DNA of 49,629 bases from Lactiplantibacillus dongliensis (lineage in GTDB: Bacteria; Bacillota; Bacilli; Lactobacillales; Lactobacillaceae), in the NCBI RefSeq assembly GCF_005405105.1, contig NZ_BJDK01000028.1, positions 1 to 49,629 on the forward strand, written 5' to 3'. A program made the position numbers and the translations under genes. The notes under the pieces were generated by a model. The model ran no database searches and was not told the DNA's origin. It worked only from the letters and a program-made list of their open reading frames with translations. Shown in pieces: positions 5,228-49,629 of this stretch (position 1 is the first letter of the stretch; each line of letters begins with the position of its first letter).

Positions 5228-5370
5228 CTAGCTGCGTGATGGCTATCTCTGTCACTAATCTTACGACTAGTTTTTGTAAGCCACCTGTAGAGTGCAGTCC
5301 CTGATGTCACCCGTCGATTGTCGATAAACATCATCCTCGTCAACTTTAGAATCTAAAGTCCTGGCGCTAT
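5228..5370 (-). ncRNA. glmS ribozyme-riboswitch in the glmS leader
   Basis: Read on the minus strand, the leader has the glmS ribozyme core in order: AGCGCC at the cleavage site (cut expected between A5368 and G5367), a hairpin (GACTTTAG..CTAAAG), GACGAGG, TTATCGA, GACGGGTG and a distal GTAAG element. It lies between the glmS promoter and the start codon. The known mechanism is self-cleavage with glucosamine-6-phosphate as cofactor, which destabilises glmS mRNA. The 3' boundary is approximate. Confidence 0.93.
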
Positions 5371-5438
5371 TCCGCTTTAACCAATTATGAATTGGTCTAG
5401 ATTAACCTCCGATTGGTATATTTCCTAGAAACAGTATT

Positions 5439-44894: not shown

Positions 44895-46547
44895 TTACTT
44901 GGCCATATACGCATACTTGTAATTCCATTGAGTTCCAGCAGTATTATGGATAATCCCTTTGGCCTTGGGATTTTGCAAGAACGAGTATACCGTTTGATAT
45001 AGCGGCGTAATGCCTTGGTCTTGCATAATCACCCGTTCCGCTTGCAGCATATCTTGCCAACGTGCCTGAGGATTATTGGCATCTTGATTTTGCGCTTTTT
45101 TCACCAATGTATTGTATTGACTACTATTATACTTACCATAATTATACCCACTGCCAGCAGTCATGATTGCCAAATGCGAAATTGGATCGTTAAAGTCGGC
45201 GCCCCAACCGCTCAAGTAAAGATCAAAATTCCCTTGTTGAGCCCGCGTTGACGCAACTTTGGCGGGAATATTGGCTATGTCAATCGTCAAGCCGCTCAGA
45301 TTCTTTTCCAATTGTCCTTTAAAGTATTGCGAAATTGGCTTATTAGGCTCGTCATTAGATGTCAATAACCGCACTGTTAACTTTTTAAGGCCGACTTCTT
45401 TGAGTCCTTCACGCCACAACCGCTTAGCTAAGGCCGGCTTATATGACGTTGAATTCTTCACCGTTGATTCGGCAGCAAAATCTTTACCATTCTTTGGATC
45501 AGTGGCTAAATCTTGTGGAACAAAAGTTTTCGCCGTGGTTGAAGCATCACCGATGACATTTTTAACTAATGATTGGCGATTGATTGATAACGAGATTGCT
45601 TGGCGAATCTTCTGATTATTCAACGCCTGACGAACCGTCTTGTGGCTGTCCTTAAAGTTATAGACTAAGAACGCGGTAATCGAATATGGATACGTCGTAT
45701 AATCTTTATTCGATTTCATATTTTTAACTTGTTCACTAGCCAACTGCGTTAAATCAAGCTTTCCCTCTTGGAATAAGTTCAACGTGGTCGTGGTGCTGGC
45801 ATTCACGCTATAGTTAATCTTGCTCAAATGGACCGCTTTTTTATCCCAATATTGATTATTCTTAACAAATGACCAACTGTTGTTCGTCCCGGTCCAACCG
45901 GTTAATTTGAATGGCCCGCTATATAACATATATTGCGCTTTAGTCGCATACTTGTTGCCCCACTTCTTAACGGCCGTTTCACTGATTGGTCCGAATAAGG
46001 GATACGTCATTAACTTTTTAAAATACGTAATGGGTTTTGATAAAGTCACAACAAAAGTGTGCTTGCCCTGAGCTTTAACACCCAACGTACTAGGTGCTTG
46101 CTTACCAGCAACAATGGCATCGGCATTTTTAACGCCGGAGAATAAATACGCATATTGTGATTTGGTTGCTGGCGTCACCGTGCGTTTCCAAGAATAAACA
46201 AAATCTTGCGCCGTAATTGCGGAACCATCACTCCACTTGGCATTGCGAATCGTAAACGTATACGTCTTGCCATCTTTGGAAACTGTCGTTTTACTAGCTA
46301 AGCCCGGGGTGACACTCCCGTTCTTACCTAAACGATACAAACTTTCAAAGACATTCCCAGTACTACCATAACCGGACATATTAGAAATATCGATTGAATC
46401 TAACGTCGTGGGGTACGACAAGTTCAAGACTTGGTTGTTCGCATACTTACCGCTACTATGCTTAGCCCCGCTCTGCTGACCACAAGCGGCCAACACCGTT
46501 ACTAATACTAAACTAAAAATAACTGCTAACACTGATCTTTTCTTCAA
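44895..46547 (-). CDS. oppA: Oligopeptide ABC transporter substrate-binding lipoprotein
   Basis: This 550-residue SBP family 5 protein has a lipoprotein signal (KRSVLAVIFSLVLVTVLAAC, lipobox LAAC with Cys22) and the OppA-type features ATKSQYAYLFSG, LFQEGKLDLTQL, NNQKIRQAISLSINRQSL and YLSGWGADFNDP. It binds peptides outside the membrane and delivers them to an Opp permease. No permease or ATPase genes are nearby, so it is an orphan receptor serving a transporter elsewhere. The start is TTG at 46547 with AGGGG 8 bases upstream. It lies directly behind a terminator and a Cys-rich leader ORF, with no clear promoter of its own; expression may depend on readthrough of that terminator. Confidence 0.93.
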   Translation of the reverse strand: MKKRSVLAVIFSLVLVTVLAACGQQSGAKHSSGKYANNQVLNLSYPTTLDSIDISNMSGYGSTGNVFESLYRLGKNGSVTPGLASKTTVSKDGKTYTFTIRNAKWSDGSAITAQDFVYSWKRTVTPATKSQYAYLFSGVKNADAIVAGKQAPSTLGVKAQGKHTFVVTLSKPITYFKKLMTYPLFGPISETAVKKWGNKYATKAQYMLYSGPFKLTGWTGTNNSWSFVKNNQYWDKKAVHLSKINYSVNASTTTTLNLFQEGKLDLTQLASEQVKNMKSNKDYTTYPYSITAFLVYNFKDSHKTVRQALNNQKIRQAISLSINRQSLVKNVIGDASTTAKTFVPQDLATDPKNGKDFAAESTVKNSTSYKPALAKRLWREGLKEVGLKKLTVRLLTSNDEPNKPISQYFKGQLEKNLSGLTIDIANIPAKVASTRAQQGNFDLYLSGWGADFNDPISHLAIMTAGSGYNYGKYNSSQYNTLVKKAQNQDANNPQARWQDMLQAERVIMQDQGITPLYQTVYSFLQNPKAKGIIHNTAGTQWNYKYAYMAK

Positions 46548-46602
46548 AACTCTCGCCCCTTTTACCTTTATTTTTTAAGTTAATCCCTAGAAATCTGGAA
46601 AC

Positions 46603-46646
46603 AAAAAACGCCTGCCTAGAATCTCGTCAGATTCCAAGCAGGCGTT
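46603..46646 (-). terminator. Strong terminator or attenuator between the Cys-rich ORF and oppA
   Basis: There is an 18-bp stem (46629-46646 with 46607-46624, two G-T pairs) with a CGTC loop and a T-run on the minus strand. It ends 56 bases before the oppA start codon. Confidence 0.88.
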
Positions 46647-46677
46647 TCCAATAATAATGGTTTTGAGCTCAATACCG

Positions 46678-46782
46678 TTAAATTGGATGCACTAGTGACG
46701 CTTGTAATTCAACGCAAATAGCCATGTTGTTAGATTCACAACATGGGCAGCACATCATCATTTGCGTAGAATTATTAGTCAT
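46678..46782 (-). CDS. 34-residue Cys-rich peptide, possible attenuation leader of oppA
   Basis: I do not recognise the peptide: MTNNSTQMMMCCPCCESNN, then MAICVELQASLVHPI; five Cys, five Met, no signal peptide. It is supported as a real ORF by GGAG 10 bases before the ATG, a consensus promoter 27 bases further upstream, and a terminator 31 bases after the stop. The mRNA over the ORF folds: 46760-46767 pairs with 46712-46719 (8 bp) and, inside, 46738-46746 pairs with 46722-46730 (9 bp). The MMCC codons lie in the bulge and PCC in the inner stem. A run of scarce-amino-acid codons in a folded leader before a terminator suggests Cys/Met-responsive attenuation of oppA. A small metal-binding protein is the alternative. 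Confidence 0.65.
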   Translation of the reverse strand: MTNNSTQMMMCCPCCESNNMAICVELQASLVHPI

Positions 46783-46815
46783 GATTACGTCACTCCGATT
46801 TCATAAGATAGGTTC

Positions 46816-46845
46816 AGTATAGATAGTGGCACTTACTTTTGTCAA
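46816..46845 (-). promoter_or_regulatory. Promoter of the Cys-rich ORF (and probably oppA)
   Basis: A perfect -35 TTGACA (46845-46840), 18 bases, TATACT (46821-46816) on the minus strand. The start is expected near 46809, about 27 bases before the ATG at 46782. It begins 9 bases past the end of the upstream transporter gene. Confidence 0.83.
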
Positions 46846-46853
46846 GCAGTTTT

Positions 46854-48332
46854 TTAAACGTGTTTGGCCCGAACCTGATACCAGATGGCCCCAGCAGTAC
46901 CAAATAAAATTGGCCCCGCTAACATCCAGATGGTATTTTGCACTTTTCCATCAACCAAGATTGGTTGCAGTAACGTGAAAATATTCGCGCCTAAGACAAC
47001 CACGAAGACGACCCAACTAATAATCGTCGTCCACTGTGGTGACTTATAAACTTCAAACGGTTTGATAATATCGTGATTATGCTTGAACTTTGGAAACGCA
47101 TAGAGCAAGAACAAATATGGCAATGTCATTGAAACATTCGACATTAAAGTCAACACATTGTAAAACGCTGACGCGTCACCCGTAGCAAAGGATGCCATGA
47201 GGATGATCACAATGACGATCGCACATTGCACAATCATCGCATAACTTGGCATTTGTTGCTTGTTTAACCGGGTGAATTTCTGTGGCCACAGTGATTTGGG
47301 CGTCCCTAAAATCAACGTTTTTAATGGTGAATAAGTCAAGGTGAAAAACGCCCCACTGTAAGCTAAGAACATACCAAGACCCGTATACCGAGCAAACCAC
47401 AGCCCTATCAGATTACTAGTTGCCCTACTTAACCCCAATGCATTCCCGAGGACATACCCTAAGTTCCGCATCATGACATAACTAATGTTCCCCATGTTGG
47501 TTGACGGATTAGCCAGTACGGCTTGCCAGTTCGTACTCATGCCCCAGCAAAAGATGCCAAGCGCATAGCCTAATGTAATGATCACGGCCGCAATAATAAT
47601 CCCGCGGGGAAAAGTCTTCTCAGGATTCTTCGTCTTATCGACCATCCCACCAAGGACTTCCAAACCACCATAAGCAAAGATGGCGAATACTGCAAAGCTC
47701 ATCAGACCAACTGGATGTTGATAACTTGGGTTCGGTGAATCCAATAGGTCAGTTAACGGTTGTGCAAAATGACCATGATTCAAAGCCAAGATGACCCCCG
47801 AAACAACTAACAAAATCGCATTTAAACTCGTGACCGCGATCCCGCCTAAGTTAGTAATCCGGACAATGCCTTTGACCCCTTTGATTGACACAAACGTGAC
47901 TAAAATCATCCAAAAACAGGATAATAAGCCAATCGTCTGCGTGGCGTTCAACCCTAAGAAACTGAAGTTCTGTGTCTGGTCACTCCCAAAAAATGTCGTC
48001 GTAAACGGGATCCAGACTTTCGCCGAAGTTGATACCATCCAAATGATATACGATGCAAACCACATGAAAGTCCCAATAAAAGCAAACCGGGCATTCACGC
48101 TCACTTCCAACCACTTGTACATCCCACTGCTGTCCGACTTAATCGCCGCCCCATATTCCGCCAACATTAAGGCGAATGGAATAAAGAACAAAACCGCCGC
48201 TGCTAGGTAAAACCAAATTGAGGCATACCCCATTAGGAAAAAGGCCACCGTCCCGTTTGCAAACCCAAACACGGTGGTAAAAATCATCATTACTAAAGCC
48301 GTTAAGGTGATTTTATTACTTTTCTCAGCCAT
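46854..48332 (-). CDS. APC-family amino-acid transporter, YjeM-like
   Basis: This 492-residue membrane protein has about 12-13 helices. The first carries the APC substrate motif region (MIFTTVFGFANGTVAFF), and AYGGLEVLGGMVDKTKNPEKTFPRG lies between helices 6 and 7, as in APC transporters. The overall pattern, including ALMLAEYGAAIKSDSSGMYKWLE, resembles YjeM and the glutamate/GABA-antiporter branch; substrate is unknown. GTGGGGA precedes the ATG. No terminator separates it from the leader promoter of oppA downstream, so some of its transcripts may run into the Cys-rich ORF. Confidence 0.85.
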   Translation of the reverse strand: MAEKSNKITLTALVMMIFTTVFGFANGTVAFFLMGYASIWFYLAAAVLFFIPFALMLAEYGAAIKSDSSGMYKWLEVSVNARFAFIGTFMWFASYIIWMVSTSAKVWIPFTTTFFGSDQTQNFSFLGLNATQTIGLLSCFWMILVTFVSIKGVKGIVRITNLGGIAVTSLNAILLVVSGVILALNHGHFAQPLTDLLDSPNPSYQHPVGLMSFAVFAIFAYGGLEVLGGMVDKTKNPEKTFPRGIIIAAVIITLGYALGIFCWGMSTNWQAVLANPSTNMGNISYVMMRNLGYVLGNALGLSRATSNLIGLWFARYTGLGMFLAYSGAFFTLTYSPLKTLILGTPKSLWPQKFTRLNKQQMPSYAMIVQCAIVIVIILMASFATGDASAFYNVLTLMSNVSMTLPYLFLLYAFPKFKHNHDIIKPFEVYKSPQWTTIISWVVFVVVLGANIFTLLQPILVDGKVQNTIWMLAGPILFGTAGAIWYQVRAKHV

Positions 48333-48562
48333 ACTATTTCCCCACTACTCTTTTCAAAATTTTGTAAATCCGTTTTCAAGTAACAATTTTATAGGAAGAA
48401 CAAAATAATTGCGTTCAATTTTACTAATAAACTCATGAATTCCCACTGTGATAATCAATTGCTTTCTGTTAATGATTTTTATTAATCAAGTTTAAGTCAA
48501 TCAACTCAGCCACCAAATTGCATTCACTGGCGGACTTAATTACACTAAGAGATGTTTAGTGC

Positions 48563-48939
48563 TAGTTGGATTAAAGTGCCACTCTGGTTGGGCCAGCATC
48601 GGCTGGAACGTGGTGGCCACGTTTATGAGCCGAAGTGCGGTCTCATAAGCCGGGCTTTGACTAAGCTGAGTAGAGCACTCAACTAAGTCAAACGACACCA
48701 CTGAGCCAATGCTGGCCCGTCCGGCGTTAATTAAGCGATTTTATAAACAGTTTAAACTATAACTTGGGCTGAGAGATTAGTTTCTAAGATACTCAGCCAA
48801 GTCGTTGGCCTTAGTGCGAGTGTGTTTTGGCTCAGGCCTAAAAGCCAAGATCAGCCCTGAAGACCGATTTTGGTTTCAAAATGCCCCACAGTGTTCCAGT
48901 ATTTTAGAACCCCACCGGCAAAACAGCAATTTTAATTAG
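48563..48939 (+). repeat. Composite A-B repeat element, copy 3 (B half decayed)
   Basis: The A half is intact: outer stem GGGCCAGCATCGGCT/AGCCAATGCTGGCCC, where AGCAT/ATGCT replaces AGAAT/ATTCT of other copies; P2 ATGAG/CTCAT; P3 TTTGACT/AGTCAAA. The B half (about 48770-48939) has several unpaired changes and a degraded end. It fills the gap between the transporter and the last gene; 48333-48562 is AT-rich and must contain the transporter promoter. Confidence 0.82.
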
Positions 48940-48976
48940 TGCCAAACGTACTAAGCTTACTTTGGAGGACGACAAT

Positions 48977-49612
48977 ATGGATTCCATCAGTCAACAACTT
49001 TTTAAGCAGCAACGCGGCAATGCCGAAAAGCTACAAGCCATTGGATTTCAACACCAGGCTGATCATTATATCCGGCAACAGCCCTTATTAGCAGGGGCTT
49101 TTCAGTTAACAATTACTGTAACATTGCCTAATCAAGTCACCACTACCCTAATCGATACCGAAACCCAGTTACCATATACGTTACATCTACAACCACAAAA
49201 TAGCGGCGAATTTGTCGCCCGTGTCCGTGAAGCCTATACCGTCGCCCTAAAAGCCGTTATCCAGCAAGCCTTTAGTGCTGATCCGTTTCAATCTGCACAA
49301 GCCCGCCACTTAATTCAAGCCGTGGCTGTCCAATATCACAATGACCTAGAATTTCTCTGGCAGAAGTTTCCTAACAATGCTGTTTGGCGCCGAACTGATA
49401 CCCACAAATGGTATGCGGCACTGTTACAAGTGTCCAAACGAAAACTAGGCCTAGCCAGTGATGACTTGGTCACGGTGATTGACCTGCGTATGGAACCAGC
49501 ACAGCTAGCAGCTTTAGTTGATAATCATCGTTACTTTCCTGGCTACCATATGAGTCAATTGCCCCTGAATAAATTCAGAGGCTTGTCGCTCACGTGTCTG
49601 ACGGCACAGTAG
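48977..49612 (+). CDS. MmcQ/YjbR-family protein, 3' end possibly frameshifted
   Basis: This 211-residue protein has an N-terminal region of its own (about 1-95). The C-terminal half resembles the MmcQ/YjbR fold: FPNNAVWRRTDTHKWYAALLQV, then DLVTVIDLRMEPAQLAALVD and FPGYHM. Family members continue after GYHM with a HW-I-x-L-DGT-type strand. Here the frame turns to SQLPLNKFRGLSLTC and stops at 49612, while another frame contains AHVSDGTVVQHAR before a TAG at 49627. This suggests a shifted 3' end, or natural divergence. The ATG at 48977 is used since GGAGG lies just upstream; the TTG at 48962 overlaps it. The family's biochemical role is unsettled. Confidence 0.7.
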   Translation: MDSISQQLFKQQRGNAEKLQAIGFQHQADHYIRQQPLLAGAFQLTITVTLPNQVTTTLIDTETQLPYTLHLQPQNSGEFVARVREAYTVALKAVIQQAFSADPFQSAQARHLIQAVAVQYHNDLEFLWQKFPNNAVWRRTDTHKWYAALLQVSKRKLGLASDDLVTVIDLRMEPAQLAALVDNHRYFPGYHMSQLPLNKFRGLSLTCLTAQ

Positions 49613-49629
49613 TCCAACATGCCCGTTAG

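Follow-up and report, generated by a model that had tools for sequence, protein, structure and literature searches.

A Cysteine-Codon Leader Upstream of oppA in Lactiplantibacillus as a Candidate Ribosome-Mediated Transcription Attenuator

Introduction

Lactobacilli rely heavily on peptides for amino acids. In the window, by which we mean the whole stretch of Lactiplantibacillus dongliensis DNA that was analyzed (49,629 nt), the oppA gene for a peptide-binding lipoprotein is preceded by a promoter, a short cysteine-rich ORF and a terminator (Table 1). How, then, would RNA polymerase get past the terminator into oppA, and which amino acid would the short ORF read? An earlier reading, made from the letters of the DNA only (the sequence-only reading), had proposed an amino-acid attenuator that couples peptide uptake to cysteine or methionine supply. 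In attenuators of the trp/his type, a leader ORF is combined with mutually exclusive 1:2, 2:3 and 3:4 pairings and with a terminator. Here we compare the oppA leader within its genus and across the Lactobacillaceae. The reading that we favor, with a probability of about 0.83, is a ribosome-mediated transcription attenuator in which read-through into oppA would depend on cysteinyl-tRNA supply.

Results

Layout of the oppA leader

The window OppA is of the OppA/PrgZ type, its best solved relatives being 5kzt, 4faj (PrgZ) and 6npo, and a YjeM-type transporter gene lies upstream of the leader on the same strand. The consensus promoter and the ribosome site that the sequence-only reading had placed ahead of a 34-codon ORF were both recovered, and both are conserved (Table 1). 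When the promoter regions of the 22 genus leaders were aligned, TTGACAAAAGTAAG was found to be common to all 21 oppA leaders. The leader promoter was the best of the eight promoter-like sites within positions 45800–49629. The number of such sites is close to that expected by chance (6.9 in shuffles), so that conservation of the promoter is the better evidence. No promoter-like match was detected on the minus strand in the interval between the terminator and oppA, in agreement with the earlier statement that oppA has no evident promoter; a strong promoter in this interval would, by the sequence-only reading, have spoken against attenuation.

The leader ORF is translated as MTNNSTQMMMCCPCCESNNMAICVELQASLVHPI (34 aa). 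The terminator (46648–46605, with a T run) lies ∼29 nt 3′ of the ORF stop and ∼55 nt 5′ of the oppA TTG; distances of 31 and 56 nt had been claimed, and whether 29 or 31 nt is obtained depends on how the edge of the stem is set. For the 213-nt leader, the computed folding energy is −75.5 kcal/mol, when compared with −45.8 kcal/mol (sd 4.2) for shuffled sequences (z = −7.1, 0 of 200 shuffles as low). The nested 8 + 9-bp structure is as had been described, with an 8-bp outer stem and an inner hairpin, the first Cys codons being unpaired and the next ones lying in a stem. An Rfam scan of the leader returned only miRNA and CRISPR models, far under their cut-offs, and no family covers the leader. 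Elsewhere in the window, a glmS ribozyme riboswitch is present at positions 5228–5379 of the minus strand (93.8 bits).

Table 1. Positions of the leader elements and associated genes; coordinates are those of the window unless another record is named, and rows refer to the 22 aligned genus leaders
Feature	Position	Strand	Remarks
Promoter TTGACA-18-TATACT	46816..46845	minus	11/12 positions; TTGACA and TATACT in 22/22 aligned leaders
Shine-Dalgarno GGAG of the leader ORF	46793..46796	minus	10 nt 5′ of the ATG; GGAG in 21/22 leaders, L022 deviates
P1 helix, 5′ strand (region 1)	46788..46794	minus	overlaps the Shine-Dalgarno; pairs with 46694-46700
Leader peptide ORF, MMMCCPCC...NMAICV	46678..46782	minus	34 codons; invariant blocks in 22 rows
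Sensor codons UGC UGC CCA UGU UGU (Cys-Cys-Pro-Cys-Cys), putative	46738..46752	minus	second codon evenly split over the 22 rows (TGC 11, TGT 11)
Hairpin CCAUGUUGU...ACAACAUGG with Cys codons 3 and 4	46722..46746	minus	9 pairs, unchanged in 22 rows
Antiterminator strand (region 2), predicted	46699..46713	minus	predicted to form 12 pairs with 46640-46626, in which 99.2% of cells are paired
P1 helix, 3′ strand, inside the ORF	46694..46700	minus	pairs with 46788-46794
Terminator 5′ arm and loop (region 3), predicted antiterminator partner	46626..46644	minus	
Intrinsic terminator (regions 3 and 4) with T run	46603..46648	minus	98.8% of cells paired
oppA, family 5 peptide-binding lipoprotein, TTG start	44895..46547	minus	Pfam PF00496, E 9.9e-80
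Cysteine-type ABC uptake operon of genome G001	L029 1130-4087		

The −35 region and spacer, CTTGACAAAAGTAAGT (46847–46831, minus strand), are near-invariant across all 21 leaders that precede oppA in the genus, and are missing from a second leader copy found in one genome (G001, see below); judged by this sequence pattern, the stretch is perhaps an operator. A regulon for the conserved promoter 17-mer was considered and rejected: the window site has one mismatch and the other 16 matches in the genome have three each, and the total of 17 compares with 14 for the reversed pattern, which is no excess. Genome-wide searches with Cys-codon DNA patterns gave 23 vs. 17 and 320 vs. 341 matches in pattern and control, respectively, counts too alike to be informative.

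Conservation within Lactiplantibacillus

A DNA search found the leader in 21 of 21 Lactiplantibacillus genomes and in 0 of 39 others. The genus alignment consists of 22 leaders (L001–L022), since G001 contributes two. M9, CCPCC (residues 11–15), NM (19–20), ICV (22–24) and LQAS (26–29) are invariant in all 22 leaders, and the differences in ORF length among them preserve the frame. In the conserved core, the variable columns number 4, 3 and 5 by codon position. The nucleotide constraint on this core is so strong that the codon positions vary alike, and the genus data cannot separate selection on the peptide from selection on the RNA. A scan of named records yielded 19 stretches, 14 from Lactiplantibacillus or uncultured Lactobacillus, one from Pediococcus and four from unrelated bacteria (L204, L209, L214, and L215).

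Competing RNA pairings in the leader

Three mutually competing pairings were found in the leader, namely P1, an antiterminator that is predicted by computation, and the terminator. Two of the seven P1 pairs vary on both sides, and one of them occurs as five standard pair types (AU 14, UA 3, CG 2, GC 1, UG 1). The covariation score of P1 is 0.219, when compared with 0.009–0.044 in slid versions, with 10 double-change cells, and none of 500 shuffles scored as high; the numbers of double-change pairs (217/500) and of pair types (229/500) were not above those of shuffles. The hairpin with the Cys codons is invariant in the 22 rows, and hence uninformative on covariation.

The predicted antiterminator strand has two bases in common with P1, so that the two pairings exclude each other. 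Its columns hardly vary in the genus, and covariation therefore cannot prove the antiterminator. Eight of the 10 changed cells in the helix are still standard pairs. Taken together with the intervening hairpin, the antiterminator gave three double-change cells, which is not above the version slid by −2 (four cells), and thus it shows conservation rather than covariation. Among the genus leaders, one of 17 columns is variable in the 5′ arm of the terminator vs. eight of 19 in the 3′ arm. A less variable 5′ arm is expected if this arm has a second partner.

The 22 leaders were then folded with a ribosome at defined positions, and the pairing of the terminator 5′ arm to upstream RNA was computed for the stage at which the 3′ arm is still unmade. 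With the ribosome at Cys1–Cys4, the mean upstream pairing was 0.58–0.73, and at Cys5 the values were 0.40–0.54. Without a ribosome the values were 0.08–0.51, and with the ribosome at the stop codon, a case that omits the RNA upstream of the ribosome, they were 0.06–0.49. Every value at Cys1–Cys4 was higher than both controls in 22 of 22 leaders. When the leaders were folded at full length, the best structure included the terminator at any ribosome position in all 22, so that the choice of the antiterminator must be kinetic.

Leader ORFs upstream of oppA orthologues in other genera

The window OppA was searched against 301 genomes of the family, and the matches listed reach E 1e-150. Among the matches listed outside the genus, the 88 with at least 574 bits were taken as orthologues, because nearly all of them outscore the paralogues encoded by the window genome itself (538 and 531 bits) and because of their position in the OppA tree (see below). 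The upstream DNA of all 88 (72 regions as L094–L164 and L173, and 16 as L310–L325) was scored by script for Shine-Dalgarno-preceded ORFs of 10–45 codons with at least three Cys in eight residues.

A Cys-cluster ORF was found upstream of 73 of the 88 listed orthologues in other Lactobacillaceae (62/72 and 11/16), the ORFs of L126, L162 and L173 being doubtful, and these ORFs are distributed over 12 genera besides Lactiplantibacillus. Dinucleotide shuffles reached the threshold in 141 of 5940 cases (123/4800 and 18/1140) and the antisense strands in 0 of 99 (0/80 and 0/19), both counts taking in paralogue and g43 regions. Paralogous oppA genes had a Cys-cluster ORF in 0/27 regions (0/6 in L167–L172, 0/20, and 0/1 in L326). 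Conservation of the Cys codons ahead of oppA in related species, which the sequence-only reading had named as a check, thus extends far past the genus, with negative paralogue controls.

A terminator was detected downstream of the ORF at 69 of the 73 family loci (58/62 and 11/11), the loci without a detected one being L126, L141, L142 and L162. Pairing of the 5′ arm to RNA past the stalled ribosome was matched by at most five of 100 shuffles at 35 of the 69 loci (29/58 and 6/11) and missed the 5% level at the other 34; owing to the relatedness among loci of the same genus, the trials cannot be counted as independent. The median shuffle rank of this antiterminator pairing was 6 among 58 loci, and four of five g42 loci ranked 87–89 of 100.

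A search with the peptide profile gave weak hits in other genera, of which L051 and L052 (Pediococcus, g5) were kept. Hit L049, which is antisense to a long ORF, was dropped, and the g43 hits L053, L055 and L063 overlap a long frame on the opposite strand. The frame of L056 reads CCPC, but no start codon was seen before it.

A second short Cys-rich ORF is located between the terminator and oppA, ∼100 nt before oppA, in Pediococcus L094, L096, L097, L098 and L100, and one is also present between the terminator and oppA in L110, L131 and L142. The second ORFs start with MSPGC-PC..., MAKSCCCW..., MCSCSQ... or MKKACCC.... From their sequence and place, they would perhaps be a second control step.

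T-boxes at orthologous oppA genes

A T-box answers to tRNA charging, binds uncharged tRNA and requires no leader ORF. Fifteen of the 88 listed orthologues are without a qualifying ORF, and 11 of these have a T-box instead (L113 of g51, and L111, L117, L125, L145, L147, L148, L313, L314, L315, and L316 of g48). When compared with Rfam, two of the oppA T-boxes scored above the cut-off, and the other nine fell short of it, at E values of 4e-12 or better. All 11 read GAA, one purine and AUG, that is, a methionine specifier. To place the specifier, they were compared with the T-boxes of the window genome at valS (GAAG-GUA), tyrS (GAAU-UAC) and a metN-like and a methionine synthase-like gene (both GAAG-AUG), where the metN-like protein scores under the cut-off of its family; other T-boxes of that genome have the codon at slightly different distances from GAA, and the specifier is a comparison, not proof. 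The window genome (G000) has 37 T-box matches, 14 of them above the Rfam cut-off. It uses many T-boxes, yet none at oppA, where the leader gave no match to the T-box covariance model RF00230.

The remaining four orthologues (L139, L150, L160, and L319) are without a qualifying ORF as well. A contig end truncates the upstream region of L139. Only weaker ORF candidates are present at L150 and L160, and T-box scans of L150 and of L319 (g48) gave no match. Neither leader nor T-box was found at four of four g43 genes (561–570 bits, outside the 88).

An OppA tree was built from 40 proteins picked as representatives. The bearers of a leader (19), of a T-box (7) and the unclear ones (3) are separated from 11 leaderless paralogues by a branch with 100/100 support, and the T-box label requires two changes on the tree. 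The labels of L300 (leader) and L309 (none) were assigned before the upstream DNA was available, and were borne out by L318 and L326, respectively.

A second leader copy before an ABC operon

One of the 21 genus genomes, G001, has a second copy of the leader, ahead of genes for two permeases, an ATPase and a binding protein. The best solved relatives of this binding protein are 2yjp (E 2e-77) and 1xt8 (E 4e-70), which we take to be the cysteine-binding proteins of Neisseria and Campylobacter; when compared with NCBIfam, it gave no match above cut-off. The second copy is without an exact GGAG and retains six of seven P1 pairs, the hairpin and the terminator. The sequence-only reading had regarded conservation of the ORF away from oppA, with the fold destroyed, as evidence against attenuation. 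The sole copy away from oppA has the larger part of the fold intact and lies ahead of a cysteine-type uptake operon.

Discussion

Probable mechanism and the amino acid that would be read

The comparisons reveal (i) a short ORF in the leader that, by its sequence, is preceded by a Shine-Dalgarno; (ii) a cluster of codons for one amino acid that exceeds chance while the rest of the peptide changes; (iii) an intrinsic terminator between the leader ORF and the gene; and (iv) by computation only, an antiterminator that is exclusive with the terminator and favored by a stalled ribosome. At the level of sequence, comparison establishes the leader ORF, its Cys cluster, P1 and the terminator, together with their conservation. 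The layout of ribosome-mediated attenuation that had been recognized earlier thereby gains comparative support, and we add to it the predicted antiterminator, which the earlier reading had not named.

We infer stalling, the order of events and the direction of control as follows. Transcription would start from the leader's own promoter. If the mini-ORF were left untranslated, P1 and the Cys-codon hairpin would form, the antiterminator strand would be held and the terminator would stop transcription. Under unpaused translation, the ribosome would cross the antiterminator strand and the terminator would form again. When charged tRNA-Cys is short, the ribosome would stall at CC-P-CC, so that the codon hairpin would be melted and P1 hindered. 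The strand around UUGAAUUACAAGCG would then be freed and would capture the terminator 5′ arm ahead of synthesis of the 3′ arm; RNA polymerase would read into oppA, and peptide uptake would go up.

It appears unlikely that methionine, or a general arrest of translation, is the main signal of the attenuator and that the Cys codons only share in a wider read-out of sulfur amino acids. Met, for which the search did not select, accounts for 97 of 1867 non-initiator residues (5.2%) in 62 leaders vs. 48 of 1893 (2.5%) in five window ORFs, but Cys, whose share is inflated because the search selected for it, accounts for 270 of 1867 (14.5%) vs. 5 of 1893. M9 is invariant in the genus, yet two g42 leaders have no internal Met; and the T-boxes of the orthologues carry AUG, whereas the second leader copy stands before a cysteine-type operon. 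We take cysteine as the probable main read-out, and methionine may contribute to sensing.

Less probable still is that the ORF encodes a functional Cys-rich small protein (e.g., a metal- or thiol-binding one), with the terminator ending its own short gene and oppA having a separate weak promoter. The promoter and terminator would fit a short gene, and the peptide is conserved in Lactiplantibacillus, but the second half of the ORF, which is invariant, is the very part in which the hairpin and the antiterminator strand lie. NM.ICV is retained in the Pediococcus (g5) peptides and in part of those of g16, a retention that would also fit a function of the peptide. In most other genera, however, the leader peptides differ in sequence and length, and have little in common but the Cys cluster (CCC, CCSMC, CCNCC, CECCC) and its place upstream of oppA, a pattern that one would expect from a sensor of codons and not from a small protein. 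In two other genera, moreover, T-boxes occupy the same place. A constitutively terminated small RNA acting in trans, with an incidental ORF, would account for the promoter, the stable fold and the strong terminator, but is very improbable given that one oppA clade retains an upstream Cys-codon ORF from genus to genus and that length changes in the ORF preserve the frame.

Attenuation by cysteine codons remains our preferred reading of the leader. The presence of Cys codons before one OppA clade and of a Met T-box before the same clade elsewhere points to a sulfur amino acid route. We give about even odds to a broader proposal, in which one Lactobacillaceae OppA clade would be a dedicated Cys/Met peptide receptor set by tRNA charging, its sensor would have been swapped at least twice between a Cys-codon leader and a Met T-box, and the second Cys-codon ORF of several Pediococcus would provide two-step control. 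A sulfur amino acid route for one clade would make a division of labor among OppA paralogues testable, and the exchange of leader peptide and T-box at one orthologous gene in one family represents a compact case for RNA sensor replacement.

Comparison with known systems

The oppA leader resembles trp/his-type attenuators in its leader ORF, exclusive pairings and terminator. It differs from them in what would be read and controlled, cysteine and a peptide receptor here in contrast to biosynthesis or synthetase genes. The T-box (RF00230) precedes the orthologous oppA in g48 and g51, and the window leader uses a leader ORF instead. Polycysteine leader ORFs have reportedly been described in mycobacteria, by Canestrari in 2020.

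In Actinobacteria, polycysteine leader ORFs with runs of Cys codons lie ahead of sulfur metabolism genes, and the excerpt of that work considered here reports that a conserved terminator hairpin is missing from the mycobacterial regions and proposes Rho instead (PMC1262725). As far as the excerpt goes, the oppA leader is similar in having a short ORF with runs of Cys codons. Unlike those leaders of cys operons, it precedes a peptide receptor gene and has a Shine-Dalgarno-led ORF, an intrinsic terminator and a predicted antiterminator. The uORFC-8-2 motif before cysS of Rhodobacterales, according to the portion of the source at hand, has tandem Cys codons in the first stem and a terminator stem with a U run, and attenuation was proposed for it (PMC8632094). 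The likeness described is one of layout. In the same portion, that motif belongs to Alphaproteobacteria and to a tRNA synthetase gene (PMC8632094).

In the literature searched, with most subscription papers outside its scope, no such leader was described for oppA or in Lactobacillaceae. His leader peptides are described in bacilli in the part of the source consulted (PMC2965389). Within the literature searched, and as far as seen from these partial sources, the closest described systems are the Cys leaders of Actinobacteria, the cysS motif of Rhodobacterales and the his leaders of bacilli.
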